Part shown: in pieces, positions 2,604 to 64,000 of the stretch
Position numbering within the stretch: position 1 is the first letter of the stretch
How the letters are laid out: every line of letters starts with the position of its first letter
Assembly: GCF_000304475.1 (NCBI RefSeq)
Contig: NC_018940.1
Location: forward strand, 682,001-746,000
Direction of reading: 5' to 3'
DNA: 64,000 nt
DNA from: Kazachstania africana CBS 2517
Lineage: Eukaryota > Ascomycota > Saccharomycetes > Saccharomycetales > Saccharomycetaceae
Program-made: the position numbers and the translations under genes
The notes under the pieces: model-generated
The model's input: only the letters and a program-made list of their open reading frames with translations
Database searches by the model: none
What the model was told of the DNA's origin: nothing

Positions 2604-4767
2604 ACCATTATCATTCTATAAAGTAACGTAGAATGGTACTATTTAACAAGTATTCTCTCATCGCTTTATGTATTCAACTGAATATTTTTCTTTTTTAAAT
2701 TGAAAAGGAAATTAATAAACCCTGAACCTGAACTATCCGAGAGTCAAATAGGTAAATCAAGTTGACAATAATAAAAAAAATACAATCTTCTGGGGCCTCT
2801 CTATACTCCTTAAACCTTTGACTGAGACTTTTGCATCAATGAACATATAGGTGTTATTCACATTCAAGTTTAATCATTTCTTTTCAAAACATTGGTATAT
2901 CTTGTTCAGAGCAATTAGCATCGCTTCATAGCATCTCCTGGACGAATTAGTAATCCAAGAACTTGTAGCAATCGATGTAAATAACGAGCTAACTCAATTA
3001 AAAAGGAAAATCTATTCCGACATTGTATATTCTAATTTAAGAAAAATTGACAAGGAATATACATTTATGTCAAGTAGTGCAACGCACCAAATATAGCTCT
3101 TCTACATATTGACACTGCAAAGGAGCATAATATGGTTAGTTATTGTATTATGCACCCTATTTTGGGCTGGTGTTCAATTTTTAATGTTTTTGACGTTTTG
3201 TTTATATTTTGGTTTAGTTTCGCCTTAATCTGGTTATTTCTAATATCTAAAAGGAAAAACCACCTTGCTATCTGTAGAAAACTAATAAAACTTCACAGAA
3301 TTTGGATGAGGCTTATTAGCAAGGTTAAAACGGCTCTGTAGATAAAATTACTGCCAGTACCACCCTTTTCACTGTATAGAGATCCATAACCACGTAACCA
3401 TATATTTTTGAACAAGCTCTTGCAAGTGCAAGTAATTTTCAATCGTAATCAAAAATTGTGTAGAAGTGGAAATTGAGGTCAACAGGCTGCGTTATATCAT
3501 TATTCATGCTATAGCATAAACAGTGATCTTTCTCAAGTTTTTTAACTTAAATTTTTAGTTTTTATCCTAGAGATTTAACTTTCTTAGTTCACATCGTGCT
3601 TGAACGTAATAGAAACACTTAAAAAAGAAAATACTGGACTAGTAGCATTGTTCAAAGCCCATGAATCGTATTTAATTAATATTGCAAGAAAAAAAGACTT
3701 CAAAACTAGTGCAGGTTGGATAGTTTAAATTCTATGTAAATAGCTTTTCAAAAATTGCTACGTGCCCAAAACTTATCTTTGAAAAAAAAGCAAACAAAAG
3801 CTCATGCCTATAAGCGCTATTCCAACAGTTACAGTTGTTCACTGAATGCTTACTGTCAGCCAAACCTCGAGTTTTAGTTAACTGGTCGAAAATTAAAATT
3901 GAAAATAAAGTGACAGAAAATCACTAAAACTTCTTTTAATTTAATCCCATCAAAAGCCAATCAGGTATATGGCGGTGACAAACCTCCACCTGACTCTAGG
4001 AGTATTCGGTGTAAGGAACAGAACTGTATTTAGTAACCGCTCTAGGAAAATTATTAAAAAAATTCCCACTGCAATACTTAAAGTGATACTAGATGTTCTA
4101 ACTATTATTTAAATCAAAATAAAGCCCTCATAACAGGATGGAGGAGGTTGAATTAAGAAAAGTAAATTCAAATAATCCACAATAGATAGATCCAAAAAAA
4201 AGTATTTGTAAGATATGTCCCTTTTTAAGTTAGGTTTGAATAATAGTTGATTGGGCGTATACACCTAATGTATTGGCCTATACTTAATCGCTTGCTGTGA
4301 TTATTGTTCCTTTTTCTATCATATGTTTACGAGAGAACTCTTCTGCAGATTATGTGGATGGCTCAGCCATATTTGTATGTTTCTGAAGGGCTTTTGATCC
4401 GATACCCTAGATAGTTATGTAAGGTTAAGCCTGTTGCTCTATTCCCGATAGCTCAGGATTAGAGTTACACAAGCATATTTAGCTTTATGAAGAACCTGCT
4501 AGAACCAACAGATGATAGTCGTAAGCCGTTGCGTTTATAAAGAAACTTGCGTATCTTGGTATTTAGGTCAAAGATCACCTTAGAAAGTTGAGGGGACATG
4601 AGGATTTCCGGCGGTCCTACAGTGCGATTAAATGAGGAGTAGTTATGTGCTTCACTTTGTTTTAGGTTGCTTGGACATTCCTGCAGTACTGGTAGTCCTA
4701 CTATGTCACATGATAGGAGAATGTACTTTCAAGGAGTTTCTTTGTTGTTAATAATCAAACAAAAAGA
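2604..4767. other. Gene-poor region left of tRNA-Lys
   Basis: No coding frame above about 70 codons looks real. S. cerevisiae has the amino-acid permease GAP1 at this position; I see no remnant of a permease here. Most of the stretch is AT-rich. About 4320-4740, directly upstream of the tRNA gene, is visibly richer in G and C, with no open frame. It could be a decayed retroelement LTR or an unannotated RNA, but no paired TGTTG/CAACA ends or snoRNA boxes were found. Confidence 0.5.
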
Positions 4768-4840
4768 GCCTTGTTGGCGCAATCGGTAGCGCGTGTGACT
4801 CTTAATCACAAGGTTAGGGGTTCGAGCCCCCTACAGGGCT
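4768..4840 (+). tRNA. tK(CUU): tRNA-Lys (anticodon CUU)
   Basis: A 73-nt cloverleaf. The acceptor arm GCCTTGT pairs with ACAGGGC, with one G-T pair, and T73 is the discriminator. The D-arm is GCGC...GCGC. The anticodon stem TGTGA (4794-4798) pairs with TCACA (4806-4810) around loop CTCTTAA, with anticodon CTT at 4801-4803. The T-arm is AGGGG/CCCCT with loop TTCGAGC, which doubles as the B box. There is no intron, as expected for the CUU isoacceptor in yeasts. A T5 tract at 4846-4850 is the Pol III terminator. The sequence is nearly identical to the S. cerevisiae gene except for a paired change in the anticodon stem. Confidence 0.97.
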
Positions 4841-5805
4841 TTCTATTTTTGCCTCATAAAACTAATGATTACACATAATTTTAATAGCACTCAATTGACT
4901 GGGGTAGGTAACTATATTTTTTGAAGAAGCATAAGAAATCGTAATATAAACAGAAATCTCGTACCTTGCAGACCCTGTCACATAAGAAACAGACATTCAC
5001 AGCGATGCGAGGCAAAATACATGGCGTAATCGTGTATAAACCCTACGTTTCCTCAATAAATAAGAAATACGTTTGGAATTTTTTACATCTATGTTCAAAA
5101 GTGTTTCCGTATATCGCTAGCTCGAGCTTATGAATACTCTTTTATATCTCTCACAACTTGGGCGTGGCATAAGCACCTCCTGATAAATGCCTATCATAGA
5201 ACATTTTAGTAACATTATACCATAAATATTTTTCACGTAAACTCATAGTTCTGTAACCTAGCCGAACTTTATAGAAGGTAGACTACATTAAGAATTAAGA
5301 TTCTAATTATTCACGTTTGGGATCTTGTGTCGGCCAAACTCTGACAAAAGGTATATTATTCTAAGAATAATCCGGACTAAGTAGAATCTGAGAGAGACAA
5401 ACTGAAGTCCACTGTCGCTAGCTGAACAGAAGAAATCAAATACATACAGAAGTAATAGGACGATAGCTTTGCATAGAGTAATTTCTATCTGATAATATTC
5501 GATGAGGGAGAAAATATTCTTGAACATCATAATTAAATGATGCTTCTGTCTTTCCAACTATTTTACCAGATGAAAATATCCTATTCAATCCTTGTAACCC
5601 CCAAAAAAGCTATATGTTCTATCCTCTACACAATTATTAGAGAGCTATATTGTCTTCTATTTTCATTTCAATATCAGCATGAATTTATTTTCTGCTATAC
5701 CGCTTTTTCGTTGAAGATAAATGAAAAATTTGATGTGAATGACCTCGACTATACAGCTAAAAGGGACCACAAAATATCTACCACGTTTCTTTTTATAGCG
5801 GCAAT
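4841..5805. other. Intergenic between tRNA-Lys and KAE1
   Basis: AT-rich spacer. Apart from the T5 tract immediately after the tRNA I see no element. Overlapping short frames at 5303-5557 (minus) and 5537-5818 (plus) have no recognisable content. The latter overlaps the KAE1 start in another frame and is regarded as chance. Confidence 0.5.
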
Positions 5806-54697: not shown

Positions 54698-57600
54698 ATG
54701 TACAAATTGCAGGTGGTCTTGGTTCCTCCTAGTGCAAAAGACTTCATTTTGCCATTGGGCTTCAATTCAAATAGTGGAATGATTGATCCAAACAATACTT
54801 TAAATCAACCAAATAATTTAAGCAATAATCAGGAAGCTTCCATGAATCAGATCTTTCCAAGTAACAATTCATCAATTTTTAATTTTAACAACGTTAGATT
54901 CAAGAAATTTTTACATTTTACTAAACCTAATAATAATTTATTTGCACTATCGCAAGAAATTCTGAACAAATGTGAAAAGATGTACCCTAAATTAATAGAC
55001 GACATTGAAATATTAAGTCTACAGGACGCAAATAGTTGCGATTTAGATCCGGATTTTACGGTCAAGGATGTCTTCAATGTGGATAATGTCGTACAAGTAA
55101 TCTTGAAAAATGAGTTAGATATAGATAATAATGAAGATATGTCATTATATAGAAATGCCAAGAGAATAAAACTGGACAGTGGAAGCTCACAGATTACTCA
55201 GCAAAATTATACTGGTGGTAATAGTGGTGTAATTAAAGTTTTAAAGAAGCGTACAAATCAAGCCAACTTAAGAGTTTCAACTCCATTGGCAAACCAAATT
55301 TATCCAAATACAAATAATAATTCTGATATAGACAATAATGACGAAGATTTTGGTGAAAGATCTTTCCTACCACCCCCTACGCATCCTCAATCTCCACCAA
55401 TACGTATCAGTTCAGGTATTGACAATTATAGCGTAAAGAGGATCAAGGTAACGAATGAAGATACGGTGTCGAGATCAGCAACGGTTGATCCTGACAAAAC
55501 GAAGCAGCAACGTATGCTTTCAGGTACTCCTTTGAAAAATACAATGACACCGAATCGTGTAACTTTGACAGGTCAAAGGGTAGTATCTGAAAATAACGTC
55601 ACAAGTTCTAATAACAATAATGGTTTGATATTCACTGGAGTTACATCCTCTAATAAAAGTGCACCTAACTCAACTCCGCGTATAGCATCGGGTATGTTAT
55701 CAATACCAGAACCTAAGATTTCAGAGGTTGAAAAAGAACTCAGAGAAGGCCCCTCAAGTCCTTCTAGTTTATTGCCTGCAAAGCCTGATAGAATTCCGAT
55801 GAAAAAGCCATACATTGAAAAGACTGAGCAACCAGAATCTTCTTCTGAAGACTTTTCCGAAAGCTCATCTTCTGAGGTAAGAGACAGTAATGCATCCCCT
55901 TCCAAAGAAGCTAACGGTGTAGCAACAGAGTTGAGTATAAAGTCACCAACTAAAAATACTCCATTCAACACTGTTAGTAGCATTCAATACAGAGACTTGG
56001 CAAATCATACATCAGTTCAAAGAAAATCGTCTTTAGAAACGAGAATTGAGAGTAAAGCAATTGCTCAAACAGCTCAAGGGCATAACGAAATGAGAAGAAT
56101 TGATAATTTCTCCGATACAGATGATGAAGAAAACGAACGCATGGATGATACTTCCATTGGGAATGATACAGTGCGTCATAATGATTTAGACTCTAGTAAA
56201 ACCATGCATAAAGATGATTTAATACGGATGGTAACTGATTACCAAAATTCAAAGCAGGTAGCTCCCTCTCCTATCTTAGAGAAACCCACATTATCAAATT
56301 CTTCTCTTGATATTAAAGATTCTGAGGAAAAAATTACTCAACAGAAGAAGAGTGATATTGAGAGCTCTTTGATCTCCAAACCATTGAAAGAAAATTTAAT
56401 TGAACCAGAGAAAGGTTCGCTTTTTAAATCTGTAGAATCTTCGTCCAATAGCACAATCAGGGTATTGAGAAATACAAAAAAGGTACCTGAAGAACAGGAA
56501 AATGAAAGCGAACTTTCAGCAGATGATGAGGAAGATAAAGATAAAAACAAACCACTACATAAAAAAAGTTACAGGAAGCCTGATACTCCTGCCCCTAGTA
56601 AGGACCATTTGTCTACAGTTACTTCTAAGAAAAGCATCACGTCTGAGGATAATAAAAGTGTCGACAAACCACAAGTCAAGAGCTCAGGTGAAAATGCAAA
56701 GCCTAAACAGTCGCTTGTTACTAAAAGCAAGCCTACAAAGGTCACAAAACCTACGATTGAAGCTTCCCCTAAGGGAAAAAAAATGATCGTCCCAATTTTA
56801 AATAAGCACAATATTGTAACTCCTAAGGCTCCAAATAAAGCAAATGATGCGCCACCACCAAGAATTTCGCAAGGTACTAATGCTAAAAAGGAACAAAAAG
56901 GTGAAGTGAAAGGTAGTTCGTCAAATGATTCGGATGAGAGCAGCTCTTCTTCGGATTCTTCTAGTTCCGATAACGAAACTGAGAGAGTTGTAACTGTTAG
57001 AACCGTAACCAAGAAACCATCGACTAGAGCCTCATTAAATAAAGCTCAGGCTCAAAAAGTCATTGATAAATCTGTTAAAGAACATTTCCCTTTCAAGAAG
57101 ATCCAGAAAGAAAAGGTTTATCAGACTCCAGAATTTCTCGAGTCCAGTGACGAAAGTGATACAAATACTGAAAACGGTTTAAATCAAGACAAGAAGGGCA
57201 AGAAATTACAAGAAGAAAAGGTGGAGAAGGGAGAAGTAATCAATAAAAACTCTGAAAACGATGAAGCAGCACCTATGACCAAGTTAGAAAAAGATACGCA
57301 TAAAAAGGAACCTGTTAAGAAAGCTGTTAGTACAAAGCCTGATGTAGCCAAAAGTACTAAGGATACGCTTCAGAAGAAGGAGGCCCAAAAGAATGAACCA
57401 TCTAAAGCCAAAGACAACAAGACTGCAGCTGTCTCGCTTGAAACACATGGATTAGTATCTAGGAACGTAATGGCCCCAGGTCTTACTAGCAATGTTAAAA
57501 ATAGCAAATCTGCATCTTTATCTTCTTCAGATAGGGAATCTTCAAGTAGCAGGGACGATTCCTCTTCATATTACAGCTCAACTGACGATTCATCATCAGA

Positions 57601-58222
57601 AGAAGAAAATTCAACCTCGTCAACCAGAAAAGCAAGAAGATTGGTCGTTGCACCACCTAAAGGCATTGTAGGAACATACAGTAGGAAGACTACCTTGGGT
57701 AATATATCAGATTTAGAAAATGCTCCTCAATCTACCCAAGTTTCGTCGCTCTCTTCACAGCAAGCATCACCTAGCAAAACACTTGTACAATCAAAACAAC
57801 TAAATGGTGCAACTGCTCCATCAAAGGTGCAGCCACATGATAGTAGTAGTTCTTTGAGCTCTTCAAGTGTATCCAATAAATTGCCTCAAAAGATTCGTCC
57901 CTCCTTAAGTTCCTTATCTGATTTGGCATCAAGAGGTATACCCGATGTCAGAGAAAAAAGTAATAAAGTTGCTTCTTCACATCAGAAAACTAAGGCTGAA
58001 AAAGAAGAATCGGAATCAGACTCTGAGTCAAGTGACGATAACTCAAGCCATGAATCAAGTTCTGATGATGATGATGATTCAGAGTCAGACTCAGATAGCT
58101 CTTCAGATAACGGTAATAGCGATTTTATCAGTGCAAAGTCTGCAAGTGCTTTATTGGGAAAGAAGAAAAAGAAGGCAAGTGGTGGTTTTGCATCCTTGAT
58201 TAAAGATTCGAAGAAAAAGTAA
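54698..58222 (+). CDS. NET1: Nucleolar RENT-complex scaffold Net1 (Net1/Tof2 family)
   Basis: An 1174-residue protein; S. cerevisiae Net1 is 1189 and its duplicate Tof2 is 771, so length favours Net1. The N-terminus [12 protein letters not shown] and the region to about residue 150 form the conserved ubiquitin-like domain. The remainder is long, Ser/Lys-rich and disordered, with [13 protein letters not shown], many SP/TP sites, and a very acidic serine-aspartate stretch (about 1100-1145). It ends in a basic [13 protein letters not shown]. Net1 anchors Sir2 and the phosphatase Cdc14 in the nucleolus for rDNA silencing and mitotic exit. The position after the YKR011C-like gene matches TOF2 (YKR010C) and, by orientation, NET1 (YJL076W). 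Confidence 0.9.
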
Positions 58223-60019: not shown

Positions 60020-61588
60020 TCAGATGATTAGATAATCAGCTCTATACTTGAACAATGGAGTCACTATTTCATGTTCTGCTTCAGCAATAGTTGTAGCAGA
60101 GGTGTTGCTGATTTCTCTGGCTGGGAAACCTTCAAAAGAATTGGCATAAGTAGCAACAGAGTGGGCAATTAGTTGTGTATTGACCATAAATGCATCCCAA
60201 GCAATGTTGGAAACGTCGTCACATAGCAAGTGATAGCACTTGTCTAATACTTCACCATTGAACACATTTTCTTTTTCTGCACCGGCCGCAATACCACCTG
60301 CAGGTATACCGTTTTCGATGAAGCCAACGTAGTCTGATCTACCATCAAACGGAATCAATGTGTAGTTTAGGTTCTTGCTCTTATAGAAATCGATGTAAAG
60401 ATCTTTCAATTCTTCAGAACCCTTTGGATTGTCGATATTGTTTGCGTCGTAAACCTCGTATTCATAATTTGGTGAGGCCATCATATCATAATCCATAAAG
60501 ACTCTAATTTTTTCGTTTTCATCCTGTGTAAGATTATAAGCATAGAAATTCGAACCTAGCAACCCTTCTTCTTCAGCAGCCCACCAAGCGAAACGTACTT
60601 TATTATTGATTTTGAAATGAGTTAAATGTTTGGCAACGGTTAATAAAGAAATTGTTCCTGAACCGTCATCATTGATACCGGGACCTTCTTCCACGGAATC
60701 TGAATGTGCGCCAAGACCAACAATATTACCTGGATCACCATGTTTTGTATCAGCAATGACATTTTTGGTTCTGATGTTCTTGACGTAAGAATCCATTGCG
60801 AAAAATAATAGATAGTCTTCATGTGATTCGATATTTGCAACTAATTCCATACCAACTTCGAATGGAACACCGATAGTAGAGACTGTGTTGTTAGTTGGCG
60901 TACCTAGTGTTGCGTGTAATCCATTTTCAGCATTTGGTTCATTATCGTAGACAACAACAGAACGGTACCCGTTTTTACCAGCCAAATCACTCTTATCACC
61001 GAAGGGACATTTACCCCTTTCAATTAAAGCAATTTTGTCACCTTCACCACTTAACAATTCCACTGCATCATAATCAGCTTGTGAACAACCAAGATTTGGA
61101 ATTTCAACTAACTTACCGATAAAGGGATTGACTGGAGGGGATAAGGAAAAGGCTGTGATATTTGGGAATTCATAGCCAGTTTTAGCATCTGTTAGATTGA
61201 AAGATATAATATTGCCGGTGAGAGCATACAATTCTTGTAAAGTAACGTCGTAATAATCTTTCATTTCATCAAATTGGTCTAAGATATAGTCTATCGTATT
61301 CCAATGTCCTGCGGAGCCAATGACTCTTGTTGGATGGCCATATTCTTCTATCGACTCCTCGGCAATATGGTATAAATCCCATGCAGTGGAATTTAATTCC
61401 TCCAGTTTGATCATATCTTGCAACTTTTCAGAGTTAATCGTAGGTTTTAAGATGTATGGTACATGAGGTTTCCATAGGTTCGCTTTTACGTCATCTGAAG
61501 AGAATTCGTGCTGAGGGATGATATAGGCATTGGTTGTCGAGGCCAGTAATATAGCTAGTTGTGATAGCTGAGATATTGACAGCTTCAT
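60020..61588 (-). CDS. APE3: Vacuolar aminopeptidase Y
   Basis: A 522-residue M28-family metallopeptidase (S. cerevisiae Ape3 is 537). A signal peptide of about 22 residues leads into a propeptide. A PA (protease-associated) domain at about 140-265 holds IPNLGCSQADYDA and IALIERGKCPFGDKSDLAGKNG. The dinuclear zinc site is visible as LGAHSDSVEEGPGINDDGSG near 293-312 (His and Asp ligands), AWWAAEEEGLLGSNF near 335-349 (catalytic Glu and zinc Glu) and DYDMMASPNYEYE. Several Asn-X-Ser/Thr sites fit its known glycosylation. It is carried to the vacuole as a zymogen and activated by proteinase B. Neighbours match the YBR286W locus. Confidence 0.98.
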   Translation of the reverse strand: MKLSISQLSQLAILLASTTNAYIIPQHEFSSDDVKANLWKPHVPYILKPTINSEKLQDMIKLEELNSTAWDLYHIAEESIEEYGHPTRVIGSAGHWNTIDYILDQFDEMKDYYDVTLQELYALTGNIISFNLTDAKTGYEFPNITAFSLSPPVNPFIGKLVEIPNLGCSQADYDAVELLSGEGDKIALIERGKCPFGDKSDLAGKNGYRSVVVYDNEPNAENGLHATLGTPTNNTVSTIGVPFEVGMELVANIESHEDYLLFFAMDSYVKNIRTKNVIADTKHGDPGNIVGLGAHSDSVEEGPGINDDGSGTISLLTVAKHLTHFKINNKVRFAWWAAEEEGLLGSNFYAYNLTQDENEKIRVFMDYDMMASPNYEYEVYDANNIDNPKGSEELKDLYIDFYKSKNLNYTLIPFDGRSDYVGFIENGIPAGGIAAGAEKENVFNGEVLDKCYHLLCDDVSNIAWDAFMVNTQLIAHSVATYANSFEGFPAREISNTSATTIAEAEHEIVTPLFKYRADYLII

Positions 61589-62083: not shown

Positions 62084-62587
62084 TTACACAGGGACAACCC
62101 ATCCCTTGTGCAAATAGATTTGATTATCGTCGTTACCAATTTTTGAACGATGTCTATTTCTGAATTTTTGAGCTCTTTGCCACTTGTCATCGAATTTCAT
62201 GAATTGTGAGGAATCTAAACCGTATTCTTCGTCAAAATTTTGATTTTGACTATTATCATTTAGATTAATATCTTGATAAATTGTACTTTTCTTTATCCTT
62301 GATTGATAGCAGATTGTTTGCGGAACCTTTTGAGTTTGCTTAAAGTTCAAGAAAAAACTTGCCATCTCCTTATCTGAGATATCCATTTCCTTATCATGAC
62401 ATTTTTGATCATCATCTATGAATAATTTAATTTTATTAGATGATATTGTTGTCTTACGTATCGTTACATATTCATTTTCGGAATCACTTTCTGCAATGAG
62501 GATGCTGTCATTAGGATAGAGTCTTGTATCAGAATTTTGAACAGACTTTTTATGGAACGTAAAGAGGTTTGATAGAAACTTTGACAT
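62084..62587 (-). CDS. Small protein at the YBR285W position
   Basis: A 167-residue protein without a known domain. The N-terminus is basic and slightly hydrophobic (MSKFLSNLFTFHKKSV). The middle is acidic, and the end is basic with clustered Trp, Arg and Lys (KFDDKWQRAQKFRNRHRSK). S. cerevisiae YBR285W (144 residues, unknown function) lies next to APE3 in the same relative orientation, which is the only basis for linking them. A clean start at 62587 and normal flanks suggest it is a real gene. YBR284W, the next S. cerevisiae gene, is absent here. Confidence 0.65.
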   Translation of the reverse strand: MSKFLSNLFTFHKKSVQNSDTRLYPNDSILIAESDSENEYVTIRKTTISSNKIKLFIDDDQKCHDKEMDISDKEMASFFLNFKQTQKVPQTICYQSRIKKSTIYQDINLNDNSQNQNFDEEYGLDSSQFMKFDDKWQRAQKFRNRHRSKIGNDDNQIYLHKGWVVPV

Positions 62588-63530
62588 CGTTTAGAGTAAT
62601 GTATGAGACTAAAATTTTATTGGAAGAAGAATGACAATTTTTTATGTGGATGTTTCTTGTTCTAGAAAACTTAACTATTTTTTTCTTATCTATTTTTCTA
62701 TATATACATATATATATATATAATCCGTTTGTTTTATTTATCTACTTGTTTGTTTATTTATTGACAGGCTATAGAAGATTGTGGGGAGAAATCTAACTAC
62801 TCCCAGCACATCTGTGTATCATTCTTGTTTTTTTTTTGAATAACTTACATTCCTTGTCAATGGGATAGTGTGTCAAGAATAGTGATCGTTTTCCCTTTTG
62901 GATTCATGTCCAATTTGTGTCATTTCAGCAGTACCCGTGCAAATATAAAAGATAAGTCAGATATCCTGAAAAGCCATGGTACAGTAAATGAATGTATAAA
63001 AAATCGATTTTACAGTGATATTCGATGCCTTGGGGGGTTAAAGTTCCGTCTCCTCTGTGTTATAATATCTAAGTAAAAGTATATATATCTCCTCATCGAG
63101 GATAATTCCGGCACTCTCCGCGGCGTCAGGAGGTCGTCTCTTCTTTCAAGATCAATCGCACTGCACTATATACTACTCCCCAGAACACTTGTTTGCGGTG
63201 TTCAATCAATCAATCGGGGCAGTGTGTGGTCTACTGTGGGCACAGCACTGCCACTTATCCATCATGTCTGCTTTGGCTTACTTATAGAGAGCCAGTCAAA
63301 GAAGTTTGACGCGCGCGTCGTTTGAAATTATAAAACCCGCAATTAATGGAATGATAAATCATGAAATTTGTACGGTGGGAATAATTCGAGCAAAGCAAAA
63401 GGATGTTGGATGGAAAAAAAATTGACAATTTTTAGTGCAGTCGTGTAAATTAAATAGGTAAAATACAACAAAGGTACCATCTATCTCACTTCACAGATAT
63501 TGTTGCTATCTCTCCTTATAGATATTTGTC
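62588..63530. other. Divergent promoter between YBR285W-like gene and SSH1
   Basis: 943 bp. Includes alternating TA runs near 62700-62722 (likely TATA for the left gene), a GC-rich island (63095-63330) with a CGCGCG palindrome, and no frame of note; the 68-codon frame at 62870-63076 looks random. Confidence 0.6.
63308..63319. promoter_or_regulatory. GACGCGCGCGTC palindrome upstream of SSH1
   Basis: A 12-bp perfect palindrome holding CGCGCG, the Rsc3/Rsc30 recognition core, and two inverted ACGCG half-MCBs, about 210 bp before the SSH1 start. CpG-dense words are rare in this AT-rich DNA. The likely role is nucleosome exclusion at the promoter (inferred). Confidence 0.45.
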
Positions 63531-64000
63531 ATGGCAGGCTGTATGTACAACCACTTTGGCGAGCTTCTATCTCGCAATTGAATTCTAAATTTCATTCTTT
63601 TTTTACTAACATTCATATGGCTAAATTTTCATATTTTATAACAGTTCGTCTAATTGATGTGGTAAAACCATTCTTACCAATATTACCAGAAGTTGAATTA
63701 CCTTATGAAAAGATCGAATTTGATGATAGAGTTGTCTATACCATCTTTTCTGGTTTAATTTATCTTTTTGCTCAATTCCCATTAGCAGGCATTCCAAAAG
63801 ATTTAGAATCAAATGTTAAGGATCCAATCTATTTCTTACGTGGTGTCTTTGCCGCTGAACCAAAAACTATTTTAGAATTTGGTATCTTCCCTGTTATTGC
63901 AAGCCCTTTATTACTACAATTGATGGCAGGTTTAAGAATTATTAAAGTTAATTTCAAAATTCAGCAGGATAGAGAATTATTTCAATCATTAACTAAACTT
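63531..64000 (+). CDS. SSH1: Sec61-like translocon subunit Ssh1, spliced, 3' end cut by window edge
   Basis: Exon 1 is 63531-63540 (ATGGCAGGCT) and exon 2 begins at 63645 and runs off the window in frame. The joined product starts MAGFRLIDVVKPFLPILPEV; S. cerevisiae Ssh1 starts MSGFRLIDIVKPILPILPEV, so splicing restores the family N-terminus exactly. Downstream, VYTIFSGLIYLFAQFPLAG is the first membrane span and FLRGVFAAEPKTILEFGIFPVIASPLLLQLMAGL is a SecY/Sec61 signature. Ssh1 forms a second ER channel with Sbh2 and Sss1 for mainly cotranslational import. Without splicing, the first ATG meets a stop after 16 codons. The S. cerevisiae gene (YBR283C) is, to my knowledge, intronless. 121 codons of about 490 are present. 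Confidence 0.93.
63541..63644 (+). other. Spliceosomal intron of SSH1 (104 nt)
   Basis: 5' splice site GTATGT at 63541-63546 (exact yeast consensus), branch site TACTAAC at 63604-63610 (exact consensus, branch A at 63609), and 3' splice site ending ACAG at 63641-63644, 35 nt after the branch A. A pyrimidine-rich run precedes the branch site. The intron splits the Phe codon after its first base (T|TT). Confidence 0.92.

Follow-up and report, generated by a model that had tools for sequence, protein, structure and literature searches.

How does the SSH1 gene of Kazachstania africana begin? The gene lies at the right-hand end of the window, by which we mean the whole 64,000-nucleotide stretch of DNA analysed here, and two start codons have to be considered for it. 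A long unspliced frame begins at an ATG at 63617 and is open to its stop. A second ATG lies upstream at 63531, from which the unspliced frame runs for 16 codons and then meets a stop; the bases before it (about 110, read directly) hold no other ATG. The question is whether the upstream ATG is joined to the long frame by splicing, or whether the long frame itself supplies the start of the protein.

The upstream ATG is followed by a complete set of splice signals on the plus strand. The coding part of exon 1 (63531..63540, ATGGCAGGCT), as read from the sequence, gives Met-Ala-Gly and the first base of a Phe codon. Next to it comes a predicted spliceosomal intron of 104 nt (63541..63644), to which the sequence, the control introns and the relatives discussed below all point, and which interrupts SSH1 between positions 1 and 2 of codon 4 (phase 1). 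Direct reading places the 5' splice site GTATGT at 63541..63546, the branch-point sequence TACTAAC at 63604..63610, its end 34 nt from the end of the intron, and the 3' splice site AACAG at 63640..63644, which holds the first AG past the branch point. Exon 2, identified by its protein match and by Pfam (PF00344 and PF10559), occupies 63645..64000 and continues past the window to window-equivalent 65107, where the spliced frame stops (read in locus L003 of the same genome). Removing 63541-63644 joins ATGGCAGGCT to exon 2 in a single open frame of 490 amino acids that begins MAGFRLIDVVKPFLPILPEVELPYEK. The locus thus shows the features of a yeast nuclear intron: a GTATGT donor, a TACTAAC at the usual distance from the first downstream YAG, and a conserved frame that is restored by the join. 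An earlier note on this DNA had named the ATG at 63531, the GTATGT, TACTAAC and ACAG signals and the removal of 104 nt, and every one of its coordinates is confirmed.

The ATG at 63617 lies inside this intron. Together with the remainder of the intron (63617..63644, plus strand) it is in frame with exon 2, and it makes a mechanically called ORF resemble a gene start, with the residues MAKFSYFITV preceding RLID. The protein-collection entry for the K. africana contig (P0003, 496 amino acids) has exactly the MAKFSYFITV start. A search of 62600-64000 against Rfam, with matches accepted up to E 1, returned none within the intron. We rejected the idea of an RNA gene inside the intron, as the sole Rfam match lies outside it, at 63009-63037 (PVT1_3, 15.2 bits versus a gathering score of 45).

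Judged by sequence similarity, the gene is SSH1 and is nearer to Ssh1 than to Sec61. Residues 1-122 of the spliced protein align to residues 1-122 of the solved Ssh1 chain 2ww9_A ('Sec sixty-one protein homolog') with an E-value of 3.7e-58 and 198.3 bits, and the claim that the splice yields MSGFRLIDIVKP, the known start of Ssh1, therefore holds from the first residue onward. The same query scores 78.9 bits against the SEC61 chain 7kao_A, far below 2ww9_A; we take both chains to be S. cerevisiae proteins. Pfam finds the SecY and Sec61 plug domains (PF00344, PF10559) in P0003. SSH1 encodes the pore subunit of a second ER translocon, the Ssh1 translocon. A search of the genome (11,130,140 bases in 12 contigs) gave a second match of the Sec61 family, L004, which is homologous to Ssh1 and 37% identical to it over 4-121, but which, unlike SSH1, is contiguous at the corresponding place (MSSSGRFLDTFKP). 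From its sequence this paralogue of SSH1 is taken to be the SEC61 gene of the same genome. A minus-strand ORF at 60020-61588 has M28 peptidase and PA domains (Pfam), which fits APE3, a gene that lies close to SSH1 in S. cerevisiae.

How much weight can the splice motifs bear by themselves? We scanned both strands of the window for GTATGT, TACTAAC and YAG in order, with the branch site 40-1000 nt past the donor, and found two such triples, the SSH1 site and a minus-strand triple spanning 368 nt. In 60 first-order Markov sequences derived from the window, the mean is 1.18 triples per sequence, and 0.2 if introns are restricted to at most 200 nt. As sequence motifs alone, the SSH1 signals would be just mildly unusual and not decisive. 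The second triple (57679-57312, minus strand) we regard as a chance occurrence: it lies opposite a 1174-amino-acid ORF (54698-58222), and its join has stops in all three frames. For the SSH1 triple we reject chance when the Markov background is weighed together with two further facts, namely that the join restores a homologous N-terminus exactly and that relatives bear the trace of the same junction.

The SSH1 intron also resembles introns of other genes in the same genome. We scanned six control loci, in three of which the motifs could be joined to a start, and these we presume to be ACT1, RPS14 and ARP2 (the families come from the searches). SSH1 combines a 10-nt coding exon with an intron of 104 nt and a distance of 34 nt from branch sequence to acceptor; the corresponding values are 10, 547 and 31 nt for ACT1, 10, 266 and 31 nt for RPS14, and 22, 139 and 29 nt for ARP2. 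The ACT1 and RPS14 introns are thus like that of SSH1 in their ten-base first coding exon, in GTATGT and TACTAAC and in acceptor spacing (31 versus 34), and unlike it in being longer (547 and 266 nt versus 104). Of the 13 matches in the actin-family search only L005 and L007 were followed, chosen because ACT1 and ARP2 carry introns in S. cerevisiae. Among the five matches of the ribosomal-protein search, L013, L015, L016 and L017 were scanned. Two RPS23 loci show a motif triple with a spacing of 43 and no joined start, the ATG being sought within 60 nt only; L017 has no motif triple, and L014 has none in the orientation read. Because the join restores the exact N-terminus and because the intron is so like the control introns of this genome, we judge it to be real.

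Is the intron peculiar to K. africana, or do relatives share it? Scans of viral and genome contig collections turned up no DNA of a relative. We compared relatives as translated proteins, so that the evidence for an intron there is at the protein level. The set comprises 132 Sec61/Ssh1 proteins, 2 from a first search, 59 from a second, and a further 71 that were new within the best 120 of 228 from a third. Proteins marked lgn, ena or jgi are assumed to have been called without splicing, and some such contigs could be transcripts. If an unspliced intron is read through, its final YAG followed by the TT CGT of exon 2 must show as a Val ahead of Arg-Leu-Ile-Asp, and the residue before that Val must have a codon able to end in CA or TA. 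Asp is required in place of Val if residue four is Tyr, as in the MAGY of Torulaspora globosa (P0005). There are only two ways to read the branch sequence TACTAAC, xLT (x = L, I or V) and xTN following a codon that ends in T, since TAA occupies the third frame.

Classified by pattern, the 132 proteins divide into 74 with an ordinary short start, 21 that carry a foreign N-terminus of six residues or more, 7 too short to be counted, and 30 left out because they have no anchor. The contiguous class of 74 includes annotated proteins that annotators perhaps spliced, as well as P0120, which starts MIRLLD; the 7 too-short proteins include four with at most five residues ending in Val, which we kept out of the contiguous class on account of that Val. 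One of those four, P0047, reads MAGV and may be a normal start. Among the foreign N-termini, 20 of 21 fit an acceptor (YAG|TT or YAG|AT) at the codon of the SSH1 intron, 19 with Val and one with Asp, and in all 20 the codon of the preceding residue can end in YA. The Asp case is P0006, which falls with Torulaspora; it was on seeing this protein that we allowed Asp as well as Val. The exception is P0051 of Kluyveromyces dobzhanskii: its start, MAGCMF..., corresponds to a read-through of T|GTATGT at the same donor. These 21 sequences are related to one another, P0002 and P0008 being near-duplicates, and the counts are not independent.

The branch sequence leaves its mark as well. Residues compatible with TACTAAC occur in 13 of the 18 foreign N-termini of at least 10 residues, whereas 20,000 shuffles averaged 2.48 and never exceeded 9. 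Five of the 18 lack such a stretch: P0003 begins past its branch site, P0051 is the donor-side read-through, P0101 would fit a one-base variant of TACTAAC, P0041 would need a variant, and P0111 has no ready reason. The rule was formed on the first two protein searches, where the branch sequence is found in 7 of 8; among proteins new in the third search the acceptor fits in 10 of 10 and the branch sequence in 5 of 7. Beyond the residues of the splice signals, and leaving near-duplicates aside, the intron-derived peptides of the relatives are unlike each other. Proteins contiguous at the junction include those of Nakaseomyces and Maudiozyma and two that are S. cerevisiae-like, P0001 (longest contig 19.5 kb) and P0004 (23.6 kb).

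To place these patterns we use two quick protein trees built with the N-terminus excluded, which differ from each other in the deep Saccharomycetaceae branches. Of 61 proteins, 4 were left out of the first tree; for the second, 25 of 132 were dropped as fragments or near-identical rows. In the second, 37 of the 107 rows are labelled by hand, 21 as intron, among them P0043, in which five residues precede the anchor, and the donor-side read-through P0051, and 16 as contiguous, these being proteins with a longest contig above 10 kb, P0004 included. Two of the 16, P0011 (Maudiozyma) and P0021 (Nakaseomyces), have annotated sources as well, but their neighbours P0012 and P0031 are lgn only. Intron-labelled proteins fall with Lachancea, with Kluyveromyces, with Torulaspora/Zygosaccharomyces and with Wickerhamomyces; others fall with Monosporozyma and the yeasts near K. 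africana, and with Scheffersomyces/Suhomyces/Candida. At the protein level, the same position and phase are therefore found in relatives outside the K. africana lineage. We read the intron as old because its traces occur in several lineages of the Saccharomycetaceae and outside that family. The minimum number of state changes on the second tree is 7 over the 37 labelled rows of 107, a count that cannot alone tell gain from loss.

The age of the intron bears directly on one rival account, a recent lineage-specific gain in K. africana or its genus. The contiguous proteins of the S. cerevisiae-like yeasts, Nakaseomyces and Maudiozyma are what such a gain would leave behind, but traces at the same codon and in the same phase occur across the tree, with Lachancea, Kluyveromyces, Torulaspora, Wickerhamomyces and Scheffersomyces/Candida among the groups concerned, and we consider a recent gain scarcely credible. 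Of the two origins that the earlier note had put forward, an ancestral intron lost in Saccharomyces or a lineage-specific gain, the protein-level traces in relatives favour the ancestral one. The intron may be older still. In P0107 (next to Arthrobotrys) and P0094 (in the Trichomonascus/Blastobotrys group), Ala-Val stands before the anchor, at the end of six and seven residues only, and these two proteins have suggested to us that the SSH1 intron may predate the Saccharomycotina.

Two further accounts concern the start itself. If there were no splicing, the protein would start at ATG 63617 with a MAKFSYFITV of its own and the motifs would be there by chance; the frame from 63617 is indeed open to its stop, and chance would supply roughly one motif triple of some size per window. 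Yet none of the other listed proteins shows MAKFSYFITV, and the alignment of the spliced start begins at residue 1. The foreign N-termini of relatives, near-duplicates apart, have in common only the residues to be expected from translated splice signals. We give this account a near-negligible probability. It is also conceivable that both starts are used, with transcription beginning inside the intron on some occasions, so that a shorter transcript translated from ATG 63617 would yield a second Ssh1 carrying MAKFSYFITV in addition to the product spliced from ATG 63531. The in-frame ATG in the intron and the absence of a stop before exon 2 would permit this, whereas the intron part past the branch site is short, the peptides that relatives derive from it are unlike, and an open stretch of nine codons easily arises by chance. 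We give such an isoform, which would add to the main explanation rather than replace it, a slim chance; if it were real, the choice of start and splicing would select between two forms of the translocon pore.

Our preferred reading, to which we assign a probability of about 0.96 from the sequence comparisons above, is that SSH1 carries a spliceosomal intron at its 5' end that is older than the Saccharomycetaceae and was lost several times, including in Saccharomyces, and that it is not a recent gain. In K. africana the spliceosome would remove the 104 bases and leave a message for a 490-residue Ssh1 beginning MAGFRLIDVVKP (MAGFRLID...). A transcript left unspliced would stop 16 codons after the true ATG and, from what is generally known of NMD, would be expected to be degraded. 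The intron would have been inherited from an ancestor older than the Saccharomycetaceae and then lost repeatedly, the Saccharomyces lineage included. The losses most likely came about when a cDNA copy exactly replaced the intron-bearing sequence, as in the general mechanism described in PMC4202332; MSGF|RLID is uninterrupted in Saccharomyces after the loss, as expected of such a replacement. We propose no extra function for the intron, because it has no Rfam match and the intron peptides of relatives are unlike.

Intron loss of this kind in yeasts is well documented (PMC4202332). The main text of that study (Hooks et al., 2014) describes 250 ancestral Saccharomycetaceae introns, with K. africana listed with 226; its set was assembled from annotated S. 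cerevisiae introns and RNA-seq predictions in S. cerevisiae, S. uvarum and N. castellii, and it gives cDNA-copy replacement as the main outcome (825 of 1,168 missing introns). Those introns are like that of SSH1 in their GTATGT, TACTAAC and YAG signals and in repeated loss that leaves the protein unchanged; unlike here, the name SSH1 has zero occurrences in the main text, the supplement lying outside the comparison. SSH1 is likewise absent from the novel Naumovozyma castellii introns in Table 1 of the same paper, and N. castellii has probably lost the intron, unless it went undetected there. In the parts of the other papers that we consulted, PMC4320514 mentions SSH1 and introns separately, and PMC7394265 mentions the Ssh1 translocon in another context. 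Our literature search, with supplements, subscription papers and genome annotations outside its scope, returned no paper linking SSH1 to an intron. The SSH1 intron may well have been published already, or be recorded in the K. africana genome annotation in GenBank.

The kind of intron is well known, and the result is a sound correction of a gene model, not a surprising biological discovery. It provides the right SSH1 start for K. africana, and probably for many related yeasts, and it offers a clear example of an old intron that many budding yeasts have retained and several, Saccharomyces among them, have lost. The read-through pattern can be used for correcting annotation and leaves views on intron function unchanged. 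As judged from the protein sequences, the N-terminus is probably wrong at this junction in four or more of the public SSH1 models. Models that look suspect, through intron read-through or mis-splicing, are those of Wickerhamomyces ciferrii (P0063), Scheffersomyces coipomensis (P0111), Suhomyces tanzawaensis (P0115) and Kluyveromyces dobzhanskii (P0051). The model of Spathaspora sp. JA1 (P0119) reads MSGFQFFLPIL and lacks the RLLDLVK found in its relatives, as would result from splicing to a later AG.

Two smaller features of the window may be recorded here. Between SSH1 and the M28 peptidase gene, a minus-strand ORF of 167 amino acids (62084-62587) gave no match in a Pfam search. A tRNA-Lys gene with anticodon CTT lies at 4767-4841.
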